Below the pieces are notes generated by a model. That model saw nothing but the letters and a program-made list of their open reading frames with translations. It was not told the DNA's origin and searched no databases. From Adineta ricciae (taxonomy: Eukaryota; Rotifera; Eurotatoria; Adinetida; Adinetidae), in assembly GCA_905250025.1 (NCBI GenBank), contig CAJNOJ010000088.1, forward strand, positions 186,001 to 250,000: a stretch of 64,000 nt of DNA, read 5' to 3'. The translations under genes were made by a program, and so were the position numbers. Below are positions 9,914 through 28,810 of this stretch, in pieces; positions within the stretch are counted from its first letter, which is position 1, and each line of letters begins with the position of its first letter.

Positions 9914-11160
9914 TTATTTCAATAAGATATACTTAACAATACGATTATTTCCCCAATCGGAAACGTAGATAGTCAATTGAGTATCAACAGCTATACTTAT
10001 AGGATTATTCAGTCCATTTGTGATAATCGGTATCGCAACTAATGAATTGGGGAGAAACATGAGAATTCGACCGCCACCAACGCCGTCGACAACATACATA
10101 TACTCATATTTATCAAATGTAACACATTTTGGAGAAGTCAGGAGAGTTTCATTCGTTCCAGATTGACCACAAACACCTGCAACAGTGATTCCGTACGAAC
10201 TTCCGGGTAACCATTTCGTCACACAATGTCCACCTTGATTGGGAATGTAGAGCGTACCTGTAATCGGATCAGTATAAAATGCCGTTGGAACGTTCAGTTG
10301 CGATGGAGTATTTCCTTGTGTACCATCACCGGCTACTCGTATTCCAGATGTACCATTTCGAATCCATTTGGTTACACGTGCTAGATTATACTCAGAAACA
10401 TAAACGTTGTAGTAAAGGTCCACGCCGAGACCTAGTATATTGCCAAAAGAGTTACCGATCGCATTGTATGAGCCATTTCCAGCAATAGATTGACTGATAA
10501 AAGATCCATAATCGAATCGCTGAATGCGATAATTACCAGAATCAGCGACATAAAGATTTTCATCTCTATCGAGACAAACTTCTCTTGGACTATTAAACTG
10601 CGTCGTGTTCCATCCCTTTCCTTGCCCTCCAGCTAGTAATATTCCACTTGTAGCACCTGGGAGCCATTTCAAGATTCGATCATTATCGGAATCAGCGATG
10701 TACAATGAATCACTGTTTGCAGGAATGAACAATCCATACGGATGATTGGTCTGATTTAACGCTGAACCAGCGGTTGTAACGTTGATACCCGTCGTATTCC
10801 ATATGGGAATGTACACTAAAACGAACAATGAGTTATAATATTCACGATTCAAACAAATCTTTTACTCGGTTCTGCTTTTGTGAAGAAAAAGTTGGAATTG
10901 AGATCAATCTGTAACATAGATGATAAGTCATCGGCAAAAAACACACATGTTTTATCATTTGTATAGCAATTGAAACTTCGATAATTGGATGAGTTTGACG
11001 ACGAAAATGCATAGCATACGCATTCCAGACATGTACTCTCGTACGACATGATATCAGTCGAATTTGTCGAAGGAGCTCCAGCATATTCGATGCGAGCGAT
11101 ATGCTGAGTACTTTTTGCGATGATCAATAGAATTAGCAGTGAACTAAACGGTGGTAGCAT
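9914..11160 (-). CDS. Secreted six-bladed NHL-repeat protein
   Basis: Exons 11160-10866 and 10815-9914 join in phase 1 (donor GTAAAA) and give 398 residues. A hydrophobic leader of about 20 residues (SSLLILLIIAKS) predicts secretion. Next comes a cysteine-rich domain of about 80 residues with two CxxC-like pairs (CLECVC) and a YNDKTC-like ending, reminiscent of PAN/apple modules. The C-terminal 280 residues hold six NHL repeats with the usual LYIADSDNDRI-type core: IADSDNDRI, VADSGNYRI, VSEYNLARV, IPNQGGHCV, VVDGVGGGR and VSDWGNNRI. Six repeats make a complete beta-propeller. NHL propellers bind RNA, protein or glycans; secretion argues for an extracellular protein or sugar ligand. Large NHL families are common in bdelloids. 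The specific ligand is unknown. Confidence 0.82.
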
Positions 11161-11375: not shown

Positions 11376-13334
11376 TCAACACTTAGGTTTTCTTTTTAGC
11401 ATCTTCGCATAACTTGAAAGTGTTCTATTCAATCGATGTGAATGCTTAAAAGGTGTTGATTGAACTGGAGCTGATGAAGTTGTCTGTAAATTATTTTCAG
11501 GTAGTAGCGCTAATGTGTTTTCGTAGTTAGCAATCGCGATCAACAACGACGGATGATTTTGTGGGAGCGAAAGTCGGCGGATGTTCACCGTTTTCTGAAA
11601 ATACTTTGCAGCATGATAATAGTCTTTCAAATTAATATAAACTCGTCCAATATTGGAATAGGTTATGGCCAGATCAGGATGTGTTGATGGAAGACGACTT
11701 AAATCAATCTGAAGACTTTTCTCGAGATGTTTTATAGCATCAACATATTCTCCTTGTTTTTTCAAAACCATACCAATGTTATTATAGAGTGACGCTAAGA
11801 TTCCTTCGTTGTTCGTATTTGTTTCCAATGCGTATTGGAAATATTGCAGTGCGTCATCAAGTTTACCTAGTCTATGAAAGATTGAACCAATGTTTGAGTA
11901 CGTATCAGCTAGCTGACCGGGTGAATATATTCTTTTGAGATAAAGTGACTCTTGAAAGTAGTTGAGTGCTTGTTCGAAGTTTTTCTTCTCGTTATAAACA
12001 CAACCCAATTGATGATAGAGAAAAGCTAATTGCTCATAATCGTCTTCGAAAGTCTTTTCCAGGAGATTTTCGTAGATTTGTTGTGCTTTATCATATTCAC
12101 CCATAGTTAATAACAATTTAGCTAGATTCTCCCATTGATTCGTTGTTGATTGTAAATCTTCGCGGAAATGTTTTGTCAACTGTTCAAGTTGAACATCGTC
12201 TTCGTTTGTAGTAAGTTTCAAATCAATTTGCCAGATTTTCGGCTCATCCTTCATCGGGCGAACGTCTTCCAGACGAAAAACTGTGTGCGTAGAAAAGAGA
12301 ATCTCCTTCTCCTGTCCTTTGAAGTAACTCAACTTGTTGATCGATCCATACGGATTGGAACTGTCCGAATATTTCCGATCGATCTTCATTCGAAAGAGAA
12401 TTCCACGAAGACCTGGTTTCATAATCGCACGACGAGCGAAATCCAAAGAAACTTCCTTGTCTAGACTAGTCGATAGAAAGTTTGGAAATGAAATCAAGCC
12501 ACCTTTGCATTGACATAAGCTCTCAAATTGACTGATTGACGTTCCTTGGCCTCGGTAGACAGTCATCGAATAATGATCTTGTGAAACATATAAACTCTGA
12601 ATTTGCTGATGAAGATCACGGATGAAAAACGCCATTTTGATCAGAATGTCGATATCACCCGTCCGAAGTGCTTTATTGAGCATTTCGTAAACGAAACAAT
12701 CTCTTGTGTACCACCAAATCGGTGAATGCTTTTCGTAATCTCTTTCGAAATCATCGAGAACCGGCAGTTGATTGAATTGCATTCGACAGTACTCAACAAA
12801 GTCTTTCTTCGCATTTTCATCGTATTCGATATTGATCAATGTTTCTTTCAATAGACGTGAATACATAAAACTTGGTTCTAGTTTATTATCACGTTGAATG
12901 TTATTGAGCAAATGAATTGGAGTTAAATCATTTTGACAATCACGTACGTCTTCTTTCAATTGACGGCAAAGTTCAGATATATCAGAGAAGATCTTCTCTC
13001 CGGATTTTGCATCGGAACGACCGAGGATATAGATCGAGTTAATGTAAGACAGATCACGAATATGTGGAAGGAAATCCTCGGCGAATGTGTCAGAAACAAT
13101 CAAGAAGACGATTTGATTGTTATGAACTTCATTTCGAAGGAAGACTTCGCAATGTGTCACATTGTTAAATGTTCGAATCGAAGGTAAAATTTGTTGAAGA
13201 TTCGGCAGAAGTTTAAAGGTACGATCGGAATCCTCATGAGTAAAAGTATTTAACCAGACGATATTTAAATCCTCCAATGGAGTCGTCGGATTTCCTATCG
13301 ATGATTTATTTTTCGATGTAGACCTGTTTCCCAT
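11376..13334 (-). CDS. Arginine-type mono-ADP-ribosyltransferase fused to TPR repeats
   Basis: This single exon of 652 residues belongs to the ART-TPR proteins typical of bdelloids. The R-S-E triad of NAD-dependent transferases is complete: Arg261 in VYRGQG, the Ser-Thr-Ser at 288-290 in FLSTS, and Glu342-x-Glu344 in GQEKEILF. The E-x-E form is the one linked to arginine as acceptor. Residues about 385-630 hold five or so tetratricopeptide repeats (LGCVYNEKKNFEQAL, IGSIFHRLGKLDDAL, IGMVLKKQGEYVDAI, IGRVYINLKDYYHAA), a likely partner-binding superhelix. The N terminus MGNRST fits an N-myristoylation signal (Gly2, Thr6), suggesting membrane tethering; no signal peptide is seen. Residues 20-130 resemble the small nucleotide-fold region often found ahead of this ART type. 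Target proteins are unknown. Lack of introns fits an acquired or retro-copied origin. Confidence 0.9.
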   Translation of the reverse strand: MGNRSTSKNKSSIGNPTTPLEDLNIVWLNTFTHEDSDRTFKLLPNLQQILPSIRTFNNVTHCEVFLRNEVHNNQIVFLIVSDTFAEDFLPHIRDLSYINSIYILGRSDAKSGEKIFSDISELCRQLKEDVRDCQNDLTPIHLLNNIQRDNKLEPSFMYSRLLKETLINIEYDENAKKDFVEYCRMQFNQLPVLDDFERDYEKHSPIWWYTRDCFVYEMLNKALRTGDIDILIKMAFFIRDLHQQIQSLYVSQDHYSMTVYRGQGTSISQFESLCQCKGGLISFPNFLSTSLDKEVSLDFARRAIMKPGLRGILFRMKIDRKYSDSSNPYGSINKLSYFKGQEKEILFSTHTVFRLEDVRPMKDEPKIWQIDLKLTTNEDDVQLEQLTKHFREDLQSTTNQWENLAKLLLTMGEYDKAQQIYENLLEKTFEDDYEQLAFLYHQLGCVYNEKKNFEQALNYFQESLYLKRIYSPGQLADTYSNIGSIFHRLGKLDDALQYFQYALETNTNNEGILASLYNNIGMVLKKQGEYVDAIKHLEKSLQIDLSRLPSTHPDLAITYSNIGRVYINLKDYYHAAKYFQKTVNIRRLSLPQNHPSLLIAIANYENTLALLPENNLQTTSSAPVQSTPFKHSHRLNRTLSSYAKMLKRKPKC

Positions 13335-17602: not shown

Positions 17603-19146
17603 ATGACGAATACGACTACAATGATCATCATTACCGCGGACGAAGACTTGATTGAAAAACTTGCGTCGAATACTACGACGAACACGAAAATTATTGATTT
17701 GGATAATGGTTATGTAACCAATAACGCGTTGCTAGAGCAGTTATGCGCACTTGTATGTATTACTTTGTCGTCCAATCACTTGAAGGTTTCTTTTTGTTAG
17801 AGTACAGATAATAACCAGACACATAAGCGTGCACTTGAATCTCCGAAAGAAAGCCGATCGAAACAACTGAAATCATTGAAAAAGTCCGAAACATTCGTCT
17901 GTGCTGTATGCGGTGATCGTGCGATTGGATACAATTATGATGTTGCGACCTGTGCATCGTGTAAAGTTTTCTTTCATCGAAATGCATTGCAATCTCGAGT
18001 TTGGTTTTGAACTTCGTATGAACATGAACGATGTTTGAAAATATTTTGTAGGACAAACTCAAATGCTTTACTAAACAAGGCCGATGTCCAGTATCTTGTG
18101 AAACACGTCGGAAATGTCCGCGATGTCGATTTGATCGTTGTTTCGCAGTTGGTATGCGGAAGGATTTCATTTTGAGTGAAGAAGAAAGACAACAACGAAA
18201 AGGGAAAGTCGAAGAAAGCCGACAGGTTACATTGAAACGTTCGTCCCCGTCAACTCCGGAACCACTCGATGAAATAGATCAGGTAAACTTATTCCATTTC
18301 ATATTCTAATAAAAGTCTATTCTGTTTCAGTTATTGGCAACTTTCCAAGACGACTTGTCTGATCAAATAGTTACTTCACAACAGATAAAAAATATTTTAT
18401 TCGATCCTTTATCTAATGAAGATTTTCAAGCAATCGAAAATGTCCGTTCGGCATTATTAGCAACATTTTTACCTGGACATAATCTTTGTTTCGGCACGGA
18501 TACGACGACTCGTGCATCGGCATTGATATCCTGGTCGAACTTCGCTCAAAAAGTCATTCTTCAGCACATTGAATTCTTCCGCAAAATTCCCGCTTTTGAA
18601 AACCTACACGACAATGATCGATTCATCTTGATCAAGTATAACTTCATGTCAATCATTCACTTATCAAAATCCTACTCTTACAATCCAGTGGGCGATTGTT
18701 GTGCATACGAAAATAACATTTTTTCCAACAAACTTCGCCAATTTTTCGATCTATGTGATGATACATGTGGTGTTCGACTTGAATGGATAAGTGTAATTCT
18801 TTCACTCGTAGAAATCACTTCCAAAGATCCGAGTATAATTGGTCTTCTTGCACTCATATTAATGTTCACTCAAGGCTTATCAATGGATGCTGATCAACCG
18901 ATGCTATCTGATTCTTTGGCGCTCAGTCGTGCTCGGACATATTATACGAAAATTCTGTGGAATTATCTCGCTCATAAATGTGGCGAAGGAGAAACTCACA
19001 AATACTTCACTCGTTTAGCACATACGATTGCTAAAATTCAAACAAGTGCAAAGAACTTTCGAAACCTTCTTCGTGTACAGTATTCCAAACCTGATGTTGT
19101 CAATCAAATGGCACCTTTGTTACAAACTGCTTTGCAAATCGCGTAG
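17603..19146 (+). CDS. Nuclear receptor, HR96/NR1J-like (tandem copy 1)
   Basis: This ligand-regulated transcription factor has exons 17603-17752, 17801-17998, 18052-18282 and 18331-19146, giving 464 residues. A short N-terminal region (MIIITADEDLIEKL) is shared with the neighbouring copy. The DNA-binding domain has two C4 fingers: CAVC...CASC, then a second finger ending CPRC. The P-box is CASCK rather than CEGCK, closest to the CESCK of HR96. The D-box loop between the fifth and sixth cysteines has six residues instead of the usual five. The text after the fingers (GMRKDFILSEEE) is the NR1J/vitamin-D-receptor-like T/A box. A helical ligand-binding domain fills residues about 200-464, with helix 3-5 sequence SWSNFAQ...HIEFFRKIPAFENL. 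HR96 members sense lipids and xenobiotics, but the ligand here is unknown. AATAAA lies at 19167-19172. Confidence 0.85.
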
Positions 19147-19533: not shown

Positions 19534-21142
19534 ATGTATCGAAAAGCAAATATGAACGGACAAACGAAAATGATCATTATTACGTCGGATGAAGATTTAA
19601 TTCGGCAATTAGCACTGCACAAACGCCCAGACACGCGTATTGTAGATCTAGATCGTCCAAATCAGCATCTCGCAGCGAATCCAAATGAGAACGATATGAT
19701 AGATTTGGCTTTTCTAGCAGAATTTTCCACACACGTTCGTATTGGATCATGTATTCCGTCAGATTTTACTATTTCGTTGCTTAGGATGCCAAGAGTGATC
19801 AAGTGTACAAACGAGCTCTGGATTCTGAACATGAAAGTCGTCCAAAGCAGGCTAGAGGTTCTCGAAAATCAGCAGATTTAATATGTGCGATTTGCGGCGA
19901 TCGAGCGGTTGGATTTAATTACGATGCTCTGTCATGCGCATCATGCAAAGCTTTCTTTCGTCGAAATGCTAATCAATCTCGAGTCAGTTGGAGAGAGCGT
20001 TCTTTCATCTTTTTGTTAATCTTTTTGGTTTACTTTTTAGGATAAATTACGTTGTTACACAAATCAAGGTCAATGTTCAGTGTCTCATGAAACTCATCGA
20101 AAGTGTCCTCGCTGTCGCTTGGATCGCTGTTTTGCAGTTGGAATGCGGAAGGATTTCATATTGAGCGAAGAAGAAAAACAACGACGTAAGAAACGTTTGG
20201 AAGAAAATCGAAGTGCTACAGAAAAACACAATTCGTCGCCGCCATCTATTCCAGCAAATGAAGAACCGCTCGATGATATCGATCGTGTAAGTCAATCGTA
20301 ATGAAAAATGAATAGTTGTAGAACAAACTTTGTCCGTTTAGTTATTGTTGAATTTAAACGAACCAAATAGTGAAGATTCAATTGGAATAGAAAGTCTTTT
20401 ATTTGATACCTTATCGATTGAAGACTGGATCGCCATCGAAAGTATCCGATCATCGTTCATAGCGACCTTTAAAAATATACATCAACCGTTTTGTACCGCC
20501 GAGGTATCTGATCGTGATTCGGCACTTGTTGCATGGTCGCATAATACTAGTCAGATGTCTCTACATTTTATCGAATTCTTCCGTCACATCGAGGAATTTG
20601 AAAATCTCTCCTGTTCCGACGATCGATTTCTCTTGATCAAATTCAATATTCTCTCAGTTTTCTCCGTATATAAATGTTATATACACGGAACAGAAGCTCT
20701 CAATTTCACCCCCGAACAAGAAGAGAAGCATCGACTATTTTTCGAATTATGTGGCGATACAGGTGATCTGATGAAGACATTCGTTGAAATAAAACTTACA
20801 CTTGTTCAATTAACAAATCAAGATCCAGCCGCCCTAGCACTTATTATGACCATTATACTTTTCACAGATCATTTAGCTGTGGACGAAAAACAACCCTCGC
20901 TAAATGATCCAATAGCTGTTGGTCGTGCACAAATCCATTACACAAAACTTCTTTGGAATTATGTCGCGAATAAACAAGGCGAAGCACAAGCGCATAAATT
21001 TTTTATTGACATGTTAGCCATTATGTTTCGTATTCAAACTTGTTCGAGAAAATTTAGAACTTTTTTCCGGAACCAATTAAGCGCATCCAATATTAGTGAC
21101 AAGATCGCACCTCTCATGCAGGCGGTCTTAAATATTTCGTAA
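19534..21142 (+). CDS. Nuclear receptor, HR96/NR1J-like (tandem copy 2)
   Basis: This is the paralogue of the preceding gene, with the same four-exon plan: 19534-19734, 19785-19982, 20041-20286 and 20342-21142 (481 residues). Introns 1 and 2 fall at equivalent residues in both copies, so the pair arose by tandem duplication. The zinc fingers read CAIC...CASC with P-box CASCKAFF, then a second finger with the same enlarged six-residue D-box loop (CYTNQGQC). The T/A-box GMRKDFILSEEEK matches copy 1. Ligand-binding domain helices are recognisable (SHNTSQMSLHFIEFFRHI), but many surface and pocket residues differ from copy 1, which suggests different ligands. The N-terminal MIIITSDEDLIRQL motif is retained and may be a conserved co-regulator contact; that is inference. 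Confidence 0.85.
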
Positions 21143-21491
21143 ATTACCTTTTAAACGAACAGACATAGCACCATATAATTTATTCTGTAGTTTTCTGTGT
21201 TGTATCTTATTTTTTCTAGTTGTTCGGTTAAAAAACTCTATTCAAGACACGCGTCATTCGAATTTCAAATCTGTAGATAGAAATTGTATCAATAGACAGA
21301 TAGTGGCGTGATCAATTTTTATTCTGTTCTGACAAAAAAGAAAAAAAAAGTACTAATCGGACATGTGTAAATAAAACAGAATACAATATTGTCCTTATCT
21401 CGTTTTTATCGTATATAAACCATGTGTCATAGACCACACGAGAAGAGAACGCAAGTCTTTGATATTTTTTTTTCGAAGTGAACTAGTGCAA
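21143..21491. other. Spacer upstream of the cyclase gene
   Basis: This holds the 3' end of nuclear receptor copy 2 and the promoter of the cyclase, including a TATA-like box at 21412-21419 and an A-rich tract at 21335-21349. There is no gene. Confidence 0.5.
21412..21419 (+). promoter_or_regulatory. TATA-like box of the cyclase gene
   Basis: TATATAAA lies 73 nt before the start ATG at 21492, a reasonable place for a core promoter with a short leader. It is a sequence match only. Confidence 0.4.
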
Positions 21492-23663
21492 ATGGCTTGG
21501 CGATTAATTTGTGATCGTGGACGGCAACTTTGGAGATATTTCCAAGACGAACCAGCAGTTTCAATTGACTACGACGAAGAGAATCCGAATTCATCGGATA
21601 AAATCTATCGTGAGTCAGCATTTAAACAAAATTACAAACCAGTCTATGCTGACGCCGATCAATATGATAAATTACGAATTCCAACATTTCAAGAAGAACT
21701 TTCAGCATCGGTCGTCAAAAGTATTCTAAATGCTGTTAACTACTATTCTGCATTACAAGTCGAAGACGGACATTGGGCTGGCGATTACGGTGGTCCCATG
21801 TTTTTATTACCCGGTGCTGTTATTACATCGTACGTAACTAACTTTCAATTTACTGAAGAACAAAAATATCAGTTGATTCGATACTTGTTTAACCATCAGT
21901 TGCCGAACGGTGGTTGGGGAACACACATTGAAAACAGATCGACTATGTTTGGAACAGTTTTGAATTATATATCGTTAAGATTATTAGGTGTGCCATTTAC
22001 TAACGAACGTTTACAGAAAGCGCATCATTTTATTCAATCGGAAGGCGGTGCAATGTATGCACCGAGCTGGGCAAAGTTTTGGCTATGTGTTCTCGGTGTA
22101 ATGCCATGGGAAGGTGTGAACTCTCTATTTCCTGAATTGTGGTTATTGCCTGAATGGCTACCCGTCCATCCATCTCGGTATTGGTGTCATTGTCGAATGG
22201 TTTATGTACCAATGAGTTATGTTTATGCCGAAAAAATCGTTGGAGAAATCACTCCGTTAGTGAGAGAATTACGAAAAGAATTGTATGTGGAAAAATACGA
22301 AAGTATCGACTTTACTAAGCATCGAAATTCGATTAGTGCATTGGATTTGTATTATCCTCAAACAGTGCTGTTAAAGATCTTGAATTTCTGTACGAATACA
22401 TATGAAACCGTGCATATTCGTCAGTTACGCGACAAGGCACGCGAATTTCTTATCAGTTACATTGAAGCCGAAGATGAACACACAAACTATGTCAATATCG
22501 GTCCAGTGAACAAATTCATTAACATGTTGTCCATCTGGTACGCAAAGGGACGAGACAGTAAACAATTTCATCAACATCTGGCTCGTGTTGACGACTATCT
22601 CTGGTTGAGTGAAGACGGAATGAAAATTCAAGGCTACAACGGCTCACAATTATGGGACACCGCCTTTTCTATCCAAGCTATCTTAGAAACGGGCTTAGGT
22701 CATTTATATAATAAATGTCTCAGTTCCGCTTATTACTATTTGGATATTAGTCAAGTGTTAGAAGATGTCAAAGATCATGTGAAATTCTATCGTCATATAT
22801 CGAAAGGTGGTTGGCCATTTTCAACTCGTGATCACGGCTGGCCTATCACAGATTGCACAGCTGAAGGTATTAAAGCGACGCTATTATTGCACGAGCAAAT
22901 GTCAATTAGTCCACATCGAATTTCATCGGATCGATTAGAAGATGCAGTGAATTTTCTTTTAAGTATACAAAATAAAGATGGTGGATGGGCAACATATGAA
23001 CTGCAACGTTCAACTGCTTGGATAGAATTATTAAATCCAGCGGAAGTTTTTCAAGGAATTATGGTGGATTATTCGTACACGGAATGTACATCTGCTTGTG
23101 TTCAAGCACTTTGGAAGTTTCGTGAACAAAGTTATTTCGCCAACCATCGACGAAAAGAAATCGATGGCGCTATTCAACGTGGAATCGAATTCATCAAAGG
23201 CAAACAACGGCCAGATGGTAGTTGGTATGGCAGTTGGGCGGTATGTTTCACTTACGGAACATGGTTTGCTATCGAAGCTTTAATTACTGTTGGAGAATCT
23301 CCAAAATCGAAATCTATTCAAAGTGCGGTGCAATTTCTACTTTCAAAGCAGAATGCCGACGGTGGTTGGGGTGAATCCTATTTAAGTTGCGTACATAAAA
23401 CATATGTCCCGCATAAACATTCGCAGGTAGTGAATACGGCATGGGCAGTTCTATCGTTAATATTGGCTAAAGCTGATGCCAGTGCTATTCGTCGCGGTGT
23501 ACAATTTCTCCTGAAAAAACAATGCGCGAATGGAGATTGGAATCAAGAAGCAATCAGCGGTGTCTTCAATGGCAACTGTATGATTAGTTATACGAACTAT
23601 CGAAATATTTTTCCAATTTGGGCATTGGGTAGATATATAAAATATGAATGTAATCATTCATAA
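21492..23663 (+). CDS. Oxidosqualene cyclase, cycloartenol-synthase type
   Basis: This is a single-exon enzyme of 723 residues that folds 2,3-oxidosqualene into a tetracyclic sterol precursor. The catalytic acid motif DCTAE (Asp454) is the eukaryotic type, not the DxDD of squalene-hopene cyclases. Other active-site residues line up with lanosterol synthase: His233 in WCHCR, Tyr502 in ATYE and Cys532 in YTECTSA. At the three positions that separate product types it has Tyr382 (GYNGSQLWD), His448 (DHGWP) and Ile452 (ITDCTAE), as in cycloartenol synthases; lanosterol synthases carry Thr, Cys/Gln and Val. Five QW repeats are visible (NGGWGTH, DGGWATY, DGSWYGSW, DGGWGES, NGDWNQE). The start ATG lies 73 nt after a TATA-like box. 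No intron interrupts it, unlike its housekeeping neighbours. It probably sits on the ER membrane. AATAAA lies at 23725-23730. A plant, protist or bacterial donor is possible. Confidence 0.93.
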   Translation: MAWRLICDRGRQLWRYFQDEPAVSIDYDEENPNSSDKIYRESAFKQNYKPVYADADQYDKLRIPTFQEELSASVVKSILNAVNYYSALQVEDGHWAGDYGGPMFLLPGAVITSYVTNFQFTEEQKYQLIRYLFNHQLPNGGWGTHIENRSTMFGTVLNYISLRLLGVPFTNERLQKAHHFIQSEGGAMYAPSWAKFWLCVLGVMPWEGVNSLFPELWLLPEWLPVHPSRYWCHCRMVYVPMSYVYAEKIVGEITPLVRELRKELYVEKYESIDFTKHRNSISALDLYYPQTVLLKILNFCTNTYETVHIRQLRDKAREFLISYIEAEDEHTNYVNIGPVNKFINMLSIWYAKGRDSKQFHQHLARVDDYLWLSEDGMKIQGYNGSQLWDTAFSIQAILETGLGHLYNKCLSSAYYYLDISQVLEDVKDHVKFYRHISKGGWPFSTRDHGWPITDCTAEGIKATLLLHEQMSISPHRISSDRLEDAVNFLLSIQNKDGGWATYELQRSTAWIELLNPAEVFQGIMVDYSYTECTSACVQALWKFREQSYFANHRRKEIDGAIQRGIEFIKGKQRPDGSWYGSWAVCFTYGTWFAIEALITVGESPKSKSIQSAVQFLLSKQNADGGWGESYLSCVHKTYVPHKHSQVVNTAWAVLSLILAKADASAIRRGVQFLLKKQCANGDWNQEAISGVFNGNCMISYTNYRNIFPIWALGRYIKYECNHS

Positions 23664-23890
23664 CTAGTTCTGTTCTTTTCTTTTGTTGATTTTCGCGTTT
23701 TGTTCTGTTTCTACTATTGAGATAAATAAAATGACTCATAGATATCACCTTTATGGTATGATCTTGTATCTAGAAAGAATGCATCCAATCAGTGCACATC
23801 GCACGTATATCATCAGATGTTTGACAAGACACATTTATCGTTTTTGTTAAATAAGAATGCAATTCCTTCTTTTCACACATCATATACATT

Positions 23891-25549
23891 ATGTTTTGGC
23901 TTATTCTTCTTCTCCTCATAGGTATTACTTACTTCGTATACAATCAACAAAAGAATCGAATACGAACAAATGTCAGTTCAGATAAGCAATATGAGCACGC
24001 GATTATCATGGGTGGAAGTATTTCCGGTATGACAACAGCTGCGTATTTATCGAAGTACTTCAAACGAATTACCATTATTGAACCGGATGATGTTCTGAAT
24101 GAAACTCTGATGAATTCCACCGCTGATGAGTTGCTGAATTATCGTTGTAACTTGACGAATTCGAATACATTAGGTCGATCGGGTACGAGTCAAAGTTATC
24201 AGATTCATGTTCTACAAGGTGAAGGCGGAAAGATTCTGTTTGATTTATTCCCGAACTTGAAAAGTCGATTGATTAACGAACACGGTGCCAAAGTTGTTTC
24301 ATTGAAGGAAAACTTTCGTTTCGTTATCGGTGATGTTTTGTTAAACAAGAACTTAACTGAAGATCTTTCATGGTTTTGTATCGATCGTTTTACATTAGAA
24401 ACGATTATGCGACGTGAGTTATGTTCATCATTCAATCAAGAAACAATTCAATGGATGTGCAATACTCGAGTCAATCGATTGATCGTTGACCGATCAACGA
24501 ATGCTGTTCAAGGTGTTCGATACCGTTCAAAAACGACTTCAGACAAAGAAGAAAGTGTGCTTTACGGCGATTTCATTGTTGATTGCACAGGAAGATTTAG
24601 CTCATCAATCAAATGGTTGAAACAAGATTTTGATCTAATCGTTCCGACTGAACAATTACATGTCGGAACAGGTTACGTTTCGTTCGTTGGTGAACGACTC
24701 AAAACAGGAAATTCAACGTTAGATTCGATTCACGTCGGTGGCAATGCTGCACATGCTCCACATCATAATAAAGGTTTTCTAACGATACCCATTCGTCAGT
24801 TGAACACGTCGGATCCGAACTCATTAGGTTTGCTATCAAATTTTGCTGTCTACTGCATCAACAATGAATATCCTCCGAATGATACTTATGAAAGTCTCTT
24901 AGAATGGGTCAAAGAACATCTGCCGAATGATTACTATCTGATGCTAAAATCGACTAAACTAATCGGCCCATTACTTCCTTATCGGCGCGCGTTCGATGAT
25001 CGAAAATACGTCGAGTCCGTTGGTCGACGATGGCCTCGAAACTATGTTCTTGTCGGCGATGCTATGTGTGTTTTCAATCCCAAAAATGGACAAGGTATGA
25101 CACACGCATGTCGACAGGCGCGACAATTGAACGAAATCTTCAGCCGAAAGTATTCATTAGAAGAAATTCCTTATGTCTACAACCGACAAGCTTCATCAAT
25201 CAGCGAGGAATGTTGGCTCGGTTCAATTACGAACGATTGGGCAGTGCCAAGTTTGAAATTAGTCAAAACAGATCAAAACGGTCAGACAAAAACATACCAA
25301 CGAACCGATGATCCGACGTTGAACTGTCTACCGCCGCAGATACCTTTATTCATGCAGTTTCTGCAATGGTATACTTATTGGTTAATTAAATGCGCAGCCT
25401 ACTCCGGAGAATTAACAACTGCGTTTATTCACGTTGTTTTTCAAGAGAAAACTCCGTATTCGTTGTTGAAACCGAGATTTTTCTTTCGAATTCTGTTCGC
25501 TTCGATTTTAGATTCTTTCAATTTAACCAAACAATTTTTAACGTCCTAG
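23891..25549 (+). CDS. Membrane-anchored FAD-dependent monooxygenase
   Basis: This single-exon protein of 552 residues lies 227 bp downstream of the cyclase on the same strand. An N-terminal hydrophobic helix (residues 2-17, FWLILLLLIGITYFV) should anchor it in a membrane. The dinucleotide-binding loop is GGSISG at 41-46 with the ribose-binding Glu at 64. The second FAD motif is VGDAMCVFNPKNGQGM, with its Asp near residue 390. A VDCTGR motif lies between them. These are features of group A flavin monooxygenases; the GGSISG and GDA.C.FNP.NGQGM forms are ones I associate with bacterial family members. The text does not match squalene epoxidase closely. The substrate is unknown; adjacency to the cyclase makes a triterpene or sterol a reasonable guess. 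The lack of introns supports recent acquisition. AATAAA lies at 25598-25603. Confidence 0.8.
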   Translation: MFWLILLLLIGITYFVYNQQKNRIRTNVSSDKQYEHAIIMGGSISGMTTAAYLSKYFKRITIIEPDDVLNETLMNSTADELLNYRCNLTNSNTLGRSGTSQSYQIHVLQGEGGKILFDLFPNLKSRLINEHGAKVVSLKENFRFVIGDVLLNKNLTEDLSWFCIDRFTLETIMRRELCSSFNQETIQWMCNTRVNRLIVDRSTNAVQGVRYRSKTTSDKEESVLYGDFIVDCTGRFSSSIKWLKQDFDLIVPTEQLHVGTGYVSFVGERLKTGNSTLDSIHVGGNAAHAPHHNKGFLTIPIRQLNTSDPNSLGLLSNFAVYCINNEYPPNDTYESLLEWVKEHLPNDYYLMLKSTKLIGPLLPYRRAFDDRKYVESVGRRWPRNYVLVGDAMCVFNPKNGQGMTHACRQARQLNEIFSRKYSLEEIPYVYNRQASSISEECWLGSITNDWAVPSLKLVKTDQNGQTKTYQRTDDPTLNCLPPQIPLFMQFLQWYTYWLIKCAAYSGELTTAFIHVVFQEKTPYSLLKPRFFFRILFASILDSFNLTKQFLTS

Positions 25550-27196: not shown

Positions 27197-28810
27197 ATGT
27201 GCGCCGCCGGGATTTCGTTCCTAATTTTAACACTATATCTTCGAATTAGTTCGATTTGTACGACGAGTACTGCCGTTTGTTTTCTTACTGTTCGACCGAT
27301 GAATGAAACTCTTGAGTTTGCTGATAGATTGGCACGAGCTGTACAACAAGATAATATCGATGTATTTGTCATGGTGGATGATAATTCGTTCAAAATTCCC
27401 TTGTCGGAAACATCCATTGTGAAACTTCTTCAGATTCCTAACAAACAATGTGTCATCCATGGATATCAACATATAATGTACGTGTATTCGAAACCGATTC
27501 AGATATCATCGTGGGATAAATCACTGCTGTACTTTTCCAAGTTGAATATAAACTATTCATTCGTGTGGCTTCTTGAAAATGATCTCTTCATTCCGAGCGT
27601 AGGTGCATTTCGTGCTATTCATGAACTTTATTCAAACACAAGTGATCTGATAGTCAAACGTGTCGATCCGAATTTTGACGGCAATCAAGAAGTTTCTTGG
27701 CCTCATTGGAAGCTAGCATATGGAAAACTTCCTCCACCATGGTTTAAATCAATGACGAATGCAGTTGGTTTTAGTCGACGTTTTCTGAAGACAGTCGATA
27801 ATTACATTCGTTGGCGAGGTATTGCTACCTTTCATGAATATTTCTTTCAAACACTAGCTTTCAATGAAAACATGACCGTTGTCTCACCGACAGAGTTCGA
27901 CACATTAGTATGGCGTCGATCTTATTCGTGGCAAGACATAGAAAGAAATCCAAGCAATTGGTGGCATCCAGTGAAAAACTTATCTCTACATGACATTTGG
28001 CGCAATAGATTATTGAAAGAAGCTCACGGCATTAATAATACCATTCATTGGCCTCAATTGAAGTCTTTGTGTAGTAAACAGGATAATACAACAAGCGTAC
28101 AAACACGTTTACAAAAACTAATTGTCGACTTCAATCAACACAAAATCCATCTCACATCCCAACAACGTCGATCTTTACGACAACATTTTCTCTGCCTTGC
28201 TCAACAATGTCAAGCAAACAAAGATCTCATATCAGCCATCAGCATCATCGAAAACCTCGCCGACAGTGCTTATAAGCTACCCGAACGTAAGTCTCATGCT
28301 CCTTTTAGACAACTATCACTAAACTGTCTTGTATTTCAGCCATGTGGACAATAATCTTTAACAAGAGCTCATTGCATTTGCAACTCAAAGAAGAACTTGT
28401 ACAGAATAAGGAATATGTGTTCCGAACAACAAACTATGCTCCTGTTGTAAAGTGGTTTCGAGAACTTGCCACAAATCTTACCATACTGTTGACAAACGAG
28501 ATTCAACGAGAAATGAAACAAGTCAAGATCGATGCTAGAACCAACAAGTTGGGTGAGTATGATGGAAATAAGTTTGACTTGATTATGTGTGTGCGTATGT
28601 GTAGATGTACTCAATGGTTCGTTACAATGGTGTGCAGAGTGGTCGAGTAAAATGGATGCTCAGGGTAAAAGGTATCGAAGAGAACATGTCGTTCGTTGGC
28701 TTTTGTATGAGAATTCTCAAGGAATACACTTATTAGTAGTAGGATTGATATTATGTGTATTTGTTGTGATGCGAGTCTATCAACTGAAAAGAAAAAAGAT
28801 TTTGTTCTGA
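27197..28810 (+). CDS. Membrane protein resembling a glycosyltransferase
   Basis: Exons 27197-28286, 28340-28552 and 28605-28810 join in phases 1 and 1 to give 502 residues. An N-terminal hydrophobic segment (GISFLILTLYLRI) and a C-terminal one (LLVVGLILCVFVVM) followed by a dibasic KRKK tail suggest a Golgi/ER membrane protein. The lumenal body looks like a GT-A fold: an alternating strand VFVMVDDNS, then WLLENDLFIP, where END could play the DxD metal-binding role, and later a WPHWKLAYGKLPPPW block. I cannot place it in a named family, so glycosyltransferase is a working label. Residues 290-450 are helical and polar. A sialyl- or fucosyl-transferase cannot be excluded. Confidence 0.55.

Follow-up and report, generated by a model that had tools for sequence, protein, structure and literature searches.

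A cycloartenol-type oxidosqualene cyclase gene and its flavin monooxygenase neighbour in the bdelloid rotifer Adineta ricciae

The common view is that sterol synthesis in animals runs via lanosterol, and that cycloartenol is a mark of plants, algae and amoebae. The described oxidosqualene cyclases (OSCs) most relevant here are the lanosterol synthases of animals (LSS, EC 5.4.99.7; human structure 1w6k) and the cycloartenol synthases of plants, amoebae and some bacteria (CAS, EC 5.4.99.8). In this report we describe a CAS-type OSC gene in a stretch of 64,000 nucleotides from the bdelloid rotifer Adineta ricciae (contig CAJNOJ010000088.1, positions 186,001 to 250,000), referred to as a whole as the window, together with the flavin monooxygenase gene that follows it. 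The reading we favour, with reasonable though far from complete confidence, is that a cycloartenol synthase is the only OSC detected and would form the entry to the bdelloid's own sterol synthesis, with squalene probably epoxidised by the neighbouring enzyme, which is of the MonCI/Lsd18 type. What is new is that a known enzyme type (CAS) occurs in an animal, where it was not expected, and next to an unusual partner gene.

In the literature searched, no paper joins bdelloids with cycloartenol synthase. A table in Boschetti et al. 2012 (PMC3499245) lists 9 of 15 EC numbers of A. ricciae steroid biosynthesis as represented by foreign transcripts, and the cyclase may be among these. Sterol C24-methyltransferases (SMTs) of the rotifers Adineta and Rotaria have already been published (PMC10692144); that study covers the same genera and the same proposed pathway, and its main text never mentions cycloartenol or oxidosqualene. 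A text search of PMC11258130 and PMC4632278 finds no mention of sterol, squalene, terpene or cyclase, and epoxidase and lanosterol are likewise unmentioned in the text of the former.

The cyclase gene and its copies

The cyclase gene lies on the forward strand at 21492..23663. Its frame is intact, running from the ATG at 21492 to its own stop, and encodes 723 aa. A Pfam scan matches the N- and C-terminal SQHop_cyclase domains (PF13249 and PF13243), and the NCBIfam model for squalene/oxidosqualene cyclases, TIGR01787, gives a full-length family match of 729.7 bits (cut-off 322.7). Human LSS (1w6k) is matched with an E-value of 1.4e-228, and His233, Tyr382, His448, Ile452, Asp454, Tyr502 and Cys532 can all be confirmed in the alignment, with the catalytic acid Asp454 inside the DCTAE motif (22851..22865, +). 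The initial annotation had called the gene a single-exon OSC, citing DCTAE and His233, Tyr502 and Cys532; the family matches and the alignment bear this out, and the downstream gene is single exon as well.

The same annotation had described Tyr382, His448 and Ile452 as CAS-type, equating them with Y410, H477 and I481 of the plant enzyme. Their codons (22635..22637 for Tyr382 and 22833..22847 for His448 to Ile452, both +) were placed by arithmetic from the start of the frame, with the residues checked, and the alignment pairs them with T381, C449 and V453 of human LSS. The description holds: the Thr/Cys/Val triad of animal LSS is absent, and Tyr/His/Ile (Y/H/I) is found instead. The triad was also compared across 124 aligned rows, comprising 120 listed OSC relatives, three methylotroph OSCs and one squalene-hopene cyclase. 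Y/H/I is present in 119 of them; thus, it is the norm of the sequence neighbourhood of this OSC and no chance pattern. The five other rows are Y/H/V (P0015, a cluster of the bdelloid clade), Y/N/V (P0026 and L004), T/C/V (the fish sequence P0065) and V/P/D (the squalene-hopene cyclase).

The OSC therefore resembles known CAS in its Y/H/I triad, its DCTAE acid and its full-length family match, and cyclopropylsterol isomerase (CPI) is found in the same genome (see below). With animal LSS it shares a substrate class and, in the case of the fish enzyme, about half of its residues. Judged by its residues, the product of the window OSC is likely to be cycloartenol. Upstream of the gene, TATATAAA at 21412..21419 (+), read by eye, is a candidate core promoter.

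The A. ricciae assembly (130.5 Mb, 1033 contigs) can be searched for further cyclases. With the window protein as query, two OSC loci are found, the window gene and a 97% identical copy on contig C57; a fish LSS query retrieves the same two and nothing further. Neither a second OSC type nor an intron-bearing LSS, whose presence the initial annotation had left to be checked, was found in the assembly with these queries. The C57 copy sits within ~15.4 kb of colinear sequence (93% identity), which also includes an intact downstream flavin gene (96% identical). When the two copies are compared, the cyclase has a dN/dS of 0.079 (dS 0.18) and the flavin gene one of 0.10 (dS 0.17), so both genes look to be under purifying selection. 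The nearest relatives of the OSC are in A. vaga (85% identity), A. steineri (80%) and Rotaria, where two full-length clusters reach 78% and 77% and a third, shorter one 68%. Another gene of the assembly encodes a protein with 96% identity to one from A. ricciae. It might be proposed that the assembly is contaminated with protist or bacterial DNA, as the closest non-bdelloid relatives of the OSC are environmental sequences. We reject it as extremely improbable, given the colinear second copy and the named bdelloid orthologues; the 64-kb window also holds nuclear-receptor-like genes.

The linked flavin monooxygenase

After an intergenic spacer of 227 bases (23664..23890, +), a second single-exon gene (23891..25549, +) encodes a 552-aa FAD monooxygenase, assigned to the MonCI/Lsd18 type from its sequence, profile and Foldseek matches, with a predicted N-terminal helix at residues 2-25. 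The spacer at the second copy is also 227 bases long, with 213 of them identical. Read by eye, the spacer contains AATAAA (23725-23730) and has no obvious acceptor AG just before the second ATG; we therefore do not favour the idea that the two genes form a trans-spliced operon.

Among solved structures, the closest to the flavin enzyme are Lsd18 and MonCI, which are polyene epoxidases of polyether biosynthesis, at 18-19% identity; both its fold and its sequence profile agree with that type; Pfam and NCBIfam name it weakly. Its FAD motif reads GGSISG, and His106, which is invariant in 32 of 32 aligned rows, stands opposite the flavin-stacking His71 of Lsd18. Besides the low identity, it differs from MonCI and Lsd18 in its predicted N-terminal helix and in its setting, an animal genome with a triterpene cyclase as direct neighbour. 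A Pfam scan of eight window proteins gave no polyketide synthase domain. The canonical enzyme for squalene epoxidation (SQLE/ERG1, PF08491) would share the proposed reaction. Human SQLE is a Foldseek match (E 5.5e-17, rank 10); it does not figure among the 50 rows listed by VIA, which rules nothing out, and the profile alignment with the canonical enzymes covers the N-terminal FAD part only. AltSQE, a squalene epoxidase of the fatty-acid-hydroxylase type with nine conserved His, also replaces SQLE and belongs to a different protein superfamily (PMC10174431). We give the linked enzyme an even chance of being the squalene epoxidase.

The linkage itself is conserved. In A. vaga, the OSC and flavin genes carry the consecutive tags I4U23_003469 and I4U23_003470. 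Among 20 other OSC clusters of at least 67% identity (rice and the window's own cluster left out, and only the longest contig per cluster considered), six share the exact size of their longest contig with a flavin monooxygenase cluster, and the remaining 14 say nothing for or against linkage. The matching sizes are 18146847 and 165210 (both R. socialis), 70225, 60564, 11453 and 4357; the last of these contigs has hardly any space beyond the two genes. In both methanotroph loci checked (L001 and L004, of L001-L005), it is a canonical squalene epoxidase that adjoins the OSC. The pair is kept as a unit; that this allows direct hand-over of the epoxide is speculation.

Bdelloids contain many further members of the flavin monooxygenase family (P0147-P0211), some of which are labelled F-box proteins in Rotaria. 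A tree of 36 of the 92 listed relatives plus the window protein did not separate linked from unlinked paralogues, having a single very long outgroup and unsettled bootstrap values.

Sterol enzymes elsewhere in the genome

A cycloartenol-like route, which the initial annotation had suggested, would need several further enzymes. It gains support from the CPI, the SMT and the CYP51 of obtusifoliol type that this genome encodes. Read from sequence, the reactions, their order and the substrate of the epoxidase would be as follows. Squalene synthase would provide squalene, which the linked MonCI/Lsd18-like monooxygenase would convert to 2,3-oxidosqualene in place of SQLE. In the cyclase, Asp454 would protonate the epoxide and Tyr382, His448 and Ile452 would direct closure of the cyclopropane ring, giving cycloartenol; this outcome is suggested by the residues, CPI and CYP51. 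SMT would then alkylate the side chain, CPI would open the cyclopropane ring, and a Phe-type CYP51 would 14-demethylate an obtusifoliol-type intermediate.

Squalene synthase has four matches in the genome. The SMT C-terminal domain is found at three loci, one of which adjoins an open reading frame (ORF) that reads by eye as the SMT methyltransferase core. CPI is found at one locus (contig C55; E 5.4e-52), where the match spans 264 residues of a 279-residue Arabidopsis CPI1 query. The product, of 310 aa, shares 80% identity with a protein of A. vaga and 35-41% with plant proteins that bear the name cycloeucalenol cycloisomerase. In a tree of 60 rows, 59 of them from 120 listed relatives, the bdelloid-like CPI sequences fall into one group of 24 rows (100/99), which points to no donor. 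A chytrid (Thoreauomyces) protein named GlmU, P0246, is also a relative of CPI (52% identical over 71% of the query), and the name is probably a misannotation. CPI would be expected beside a cycloartenol synthase, and its presence is supporting evidence of a non-exclusive kind: in Capsaspora, CPI is reported although the OSC is T/C/V (PMC4967820).

One CYP51 locus stands out at 341 bits among 79 matches, the next P450 scoring 114 bits. Among solved structures it matches an 'obtusifoliol 14alpha-demethylase' best, with 466 bits compared with 329 bits for 3jus, a lanosterol 14-alpha demethylase that we take to be the human enzyme. In its YTF motif, a column read from the alignments, it has the plant-like Phe, as does the obtusifoliol-demethylase chain, where 3jus has Leu. 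In the CYP51 of A. castellanii, Phe116 accompanies a 100-fold preference for obtusifoliol (PMC11089504). The CYP51 gene (L107, contig C39) and the CPI gene (L115, contig C55) are also single uninterrupted frames. Reductases of the ERG4/ERG24 type give 14 matches, some of them in adjacent pairs of pieces resembling split genes, which suggests that an exon-wise search does find split genes. No match to canonical SQLE was found in the assembly. The genome has 21 matches to the fatty-acid-hydroxylase family PF04116, which are candidates for AltSQE and also for the sterol C4 and C5 steps.

Origin, alternatives and implications

The main OSC tree (LG+C20) draws 47 of its 50 rows from the 120 listed relatives. 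Ten rows of the bdelloid clade form a 100/100 group, and two environmental sequences join it at 96/83. A 99/95 branch then divides the tree. The bdelloid OSCs share their side with further environmental rows, with two rows from EukProt and with a clade (100/100) of Bacteroidota and methylotroph rows, outside which they lie. Across the branch are the LSS of human and fish and the sequences of rice, Dictyostelium and Acanthamoeba, together with two other transcriptome rows and a few from the environment. An earlier FastTree tree of 117 rows (the 120 relatives minus eight fragments and near-duplicates, plus five bacterial sequences) concurs on the bdelloid group and its closest environmental relatives. 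Approximately unbiased (AU) tests of the bdelloid OSCs grouped with human and fish LSS, rice, Dictyostelium or Acanthamoeba give p values of 0.029, 0.0196, 0.0007 and 0.0004, respectively; the four tests are uncorrected, and the animal and rice results fail a strict correction. The phylogeny that the initial annotation had proposed as a check thus places the OSC outside the two sampled animal LSS. That annotation had also suggested acquisition from a plant, alga, amoeba or bacterium. A cycloartenol-type OSC in an animal stands; as donors, a rice-like plant, Dictyostelium and Acanthamoeba are disfavoured by the AU tests, and the sampled bacteria are excluded by the position of the bdelloid sequences. 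Named algae have no row in the OSC trees. The gene may have come from a donor or descended vertically from an old eukaryotic type.

Vertical descent could also take a form at odds with the favoured reading, in which an animal cyclase drifted to Y/H/I, or kept it, and might still produce lanosterol. Parts of the cycloartenol route may be old in the lineage, given that CPI is reported in sponges and S. rosetta as well as in Capsaspora (PMC4967820), and the SMT study, which included rotifers, found no compelling case that animal SMTs were acquired horizontally (PMC10692144); in addition, the tree held only two animal LSS rows. We nevertheless consider this form improbable in view of the AU result against grouping with those two rows, the environmental sequences as closest relatives and the T/C/V triad of the Capsaspora OSC. 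Slightly less probable still is that the pair makes a specialised triterpene, with membrane sterols taken from food. Two adjacent, non-animal-looking genes do resemble a small biosynthetic cluster, and there is a report that bdelloids counter a fungal pathogen with biosynthetic genes gained by horizontal transfer (PMC11258130), so the product could be defensive, as the initial annotation had offered as one option. Because only one OSC type was found in the genome, and the downstream cycloartenol enzymes are there, this is less likely than primary sterol synthesis, for which CPI, SMT, CYP51 and the ERG4/ERG24-type reductases would be required.

The alternative that deserves most weight, while still unlikely, concerns the epoxide and not the cyclase: cycloartenol would be made for sterols, with oxidosqualene supplied by AltSQE or by an SQLE missed in the assembly, and the flavin enzyme would serve a later step, perhaps at a double bond of the side chain. 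AltSQE replaces squalene epoxidase in several protists, and the published alignment includes a choanoflagellate (PMC10174431); the PF04116 matches provide candidates for it, and bdelloid flavin paralogues are not seen linked to an OSC. Against this, the flavin gene is the one that is linked to the OSC in several bdelloids, the closest solved relatives of its product epoxidise terpene-like polyenes, and the equivalent neighbouring slot holds a squalene epoxidase in the two methanotroph loci.

Several observations count against cycloartenol synthesis with the linked enzyme as epoxidase. The cyclase scores 721.7 bits against the narrower model TIGR03463 (2,3-oxidosqualene cyclase), below its curated cut-off of 851, and the AU result for animal LSS is modest, involving two animal sequences on a long branch. 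For the flavin enzyme, PF08491 gives no match at E 0.001, the unlinked bdelloid members of its family are ~46-58% identical, and AltSQE among the PF04116 matches would be an alternative source of epoxide. The absence of SQLE is read from a single assembly, which is perhaps incomplete, given that CPI and the strong match to CYP51 occur once each while the OSC occurs twice. EBP, a later step, has one weak match only (E 3.9e-5). Finally, P0015 keeps Tyr and His and carries Val at the position of Ile452. PMC4919349 found a complete correlation among the bacteria it tested, in which Val at the residue equivalent to human 453 goes with lanosterol and Ile with cycloartenol, and for this reason P0015 may represent a bdelloid lineage making another product; it is itself paired with a flavin gene, the longest contigs of the two clusters being equal in size.

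Other genes in the window include two nuclear-hormone-receptor-like genes directly upstream of the cyclase. The first (18334-19146, +) has a ligand-binding match, PF00104; the second (19803-21142, +) is apparently split over two ORFs, one zinc-finger-like by eye and the next resembling that of the first gene, with no Pfam match. A sterol-responsive receptor next to sterol genes would be a noteworthy possibility. Farther away are an NHL-repeat protein (9914-10852, -; PF01436), an ADP-ribosyltransferase-type domain fused to tetratricopeptide repeats (11376-13334, -; PF03496) and a 385-aa single-exon ORF (27197-28354, +) with no Pfam match at E 0.001.

The broadest form of the proposal, which we hold tentatively and at somewhat less than even chance, is that bdelloids are without animal SQLE and LSS and make sterols de novo via cycloartenol, using a two-gene cassette that includes a third, hitherto unrecognised kind of squalene epoxidase. 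If this is true, an enzyme of the MonCI type would take its place beside SQLE and AltSQE in that role, and bdelloids are predicted to resist SQLE inhibitors such as terbinafine. A bdelloid whose sole detected OSC is of the CAS type, and which has CPI and SMT as well as a CYP51 of the obtusifoliol type, would break the lanosterol rule for animals and would suggest a substrate for the rotifer SMTs. It would also bear on the reading of C28/C29 steranes as animal or algal signals, and on how a core pathway may be taken over by non-animal enzymes.
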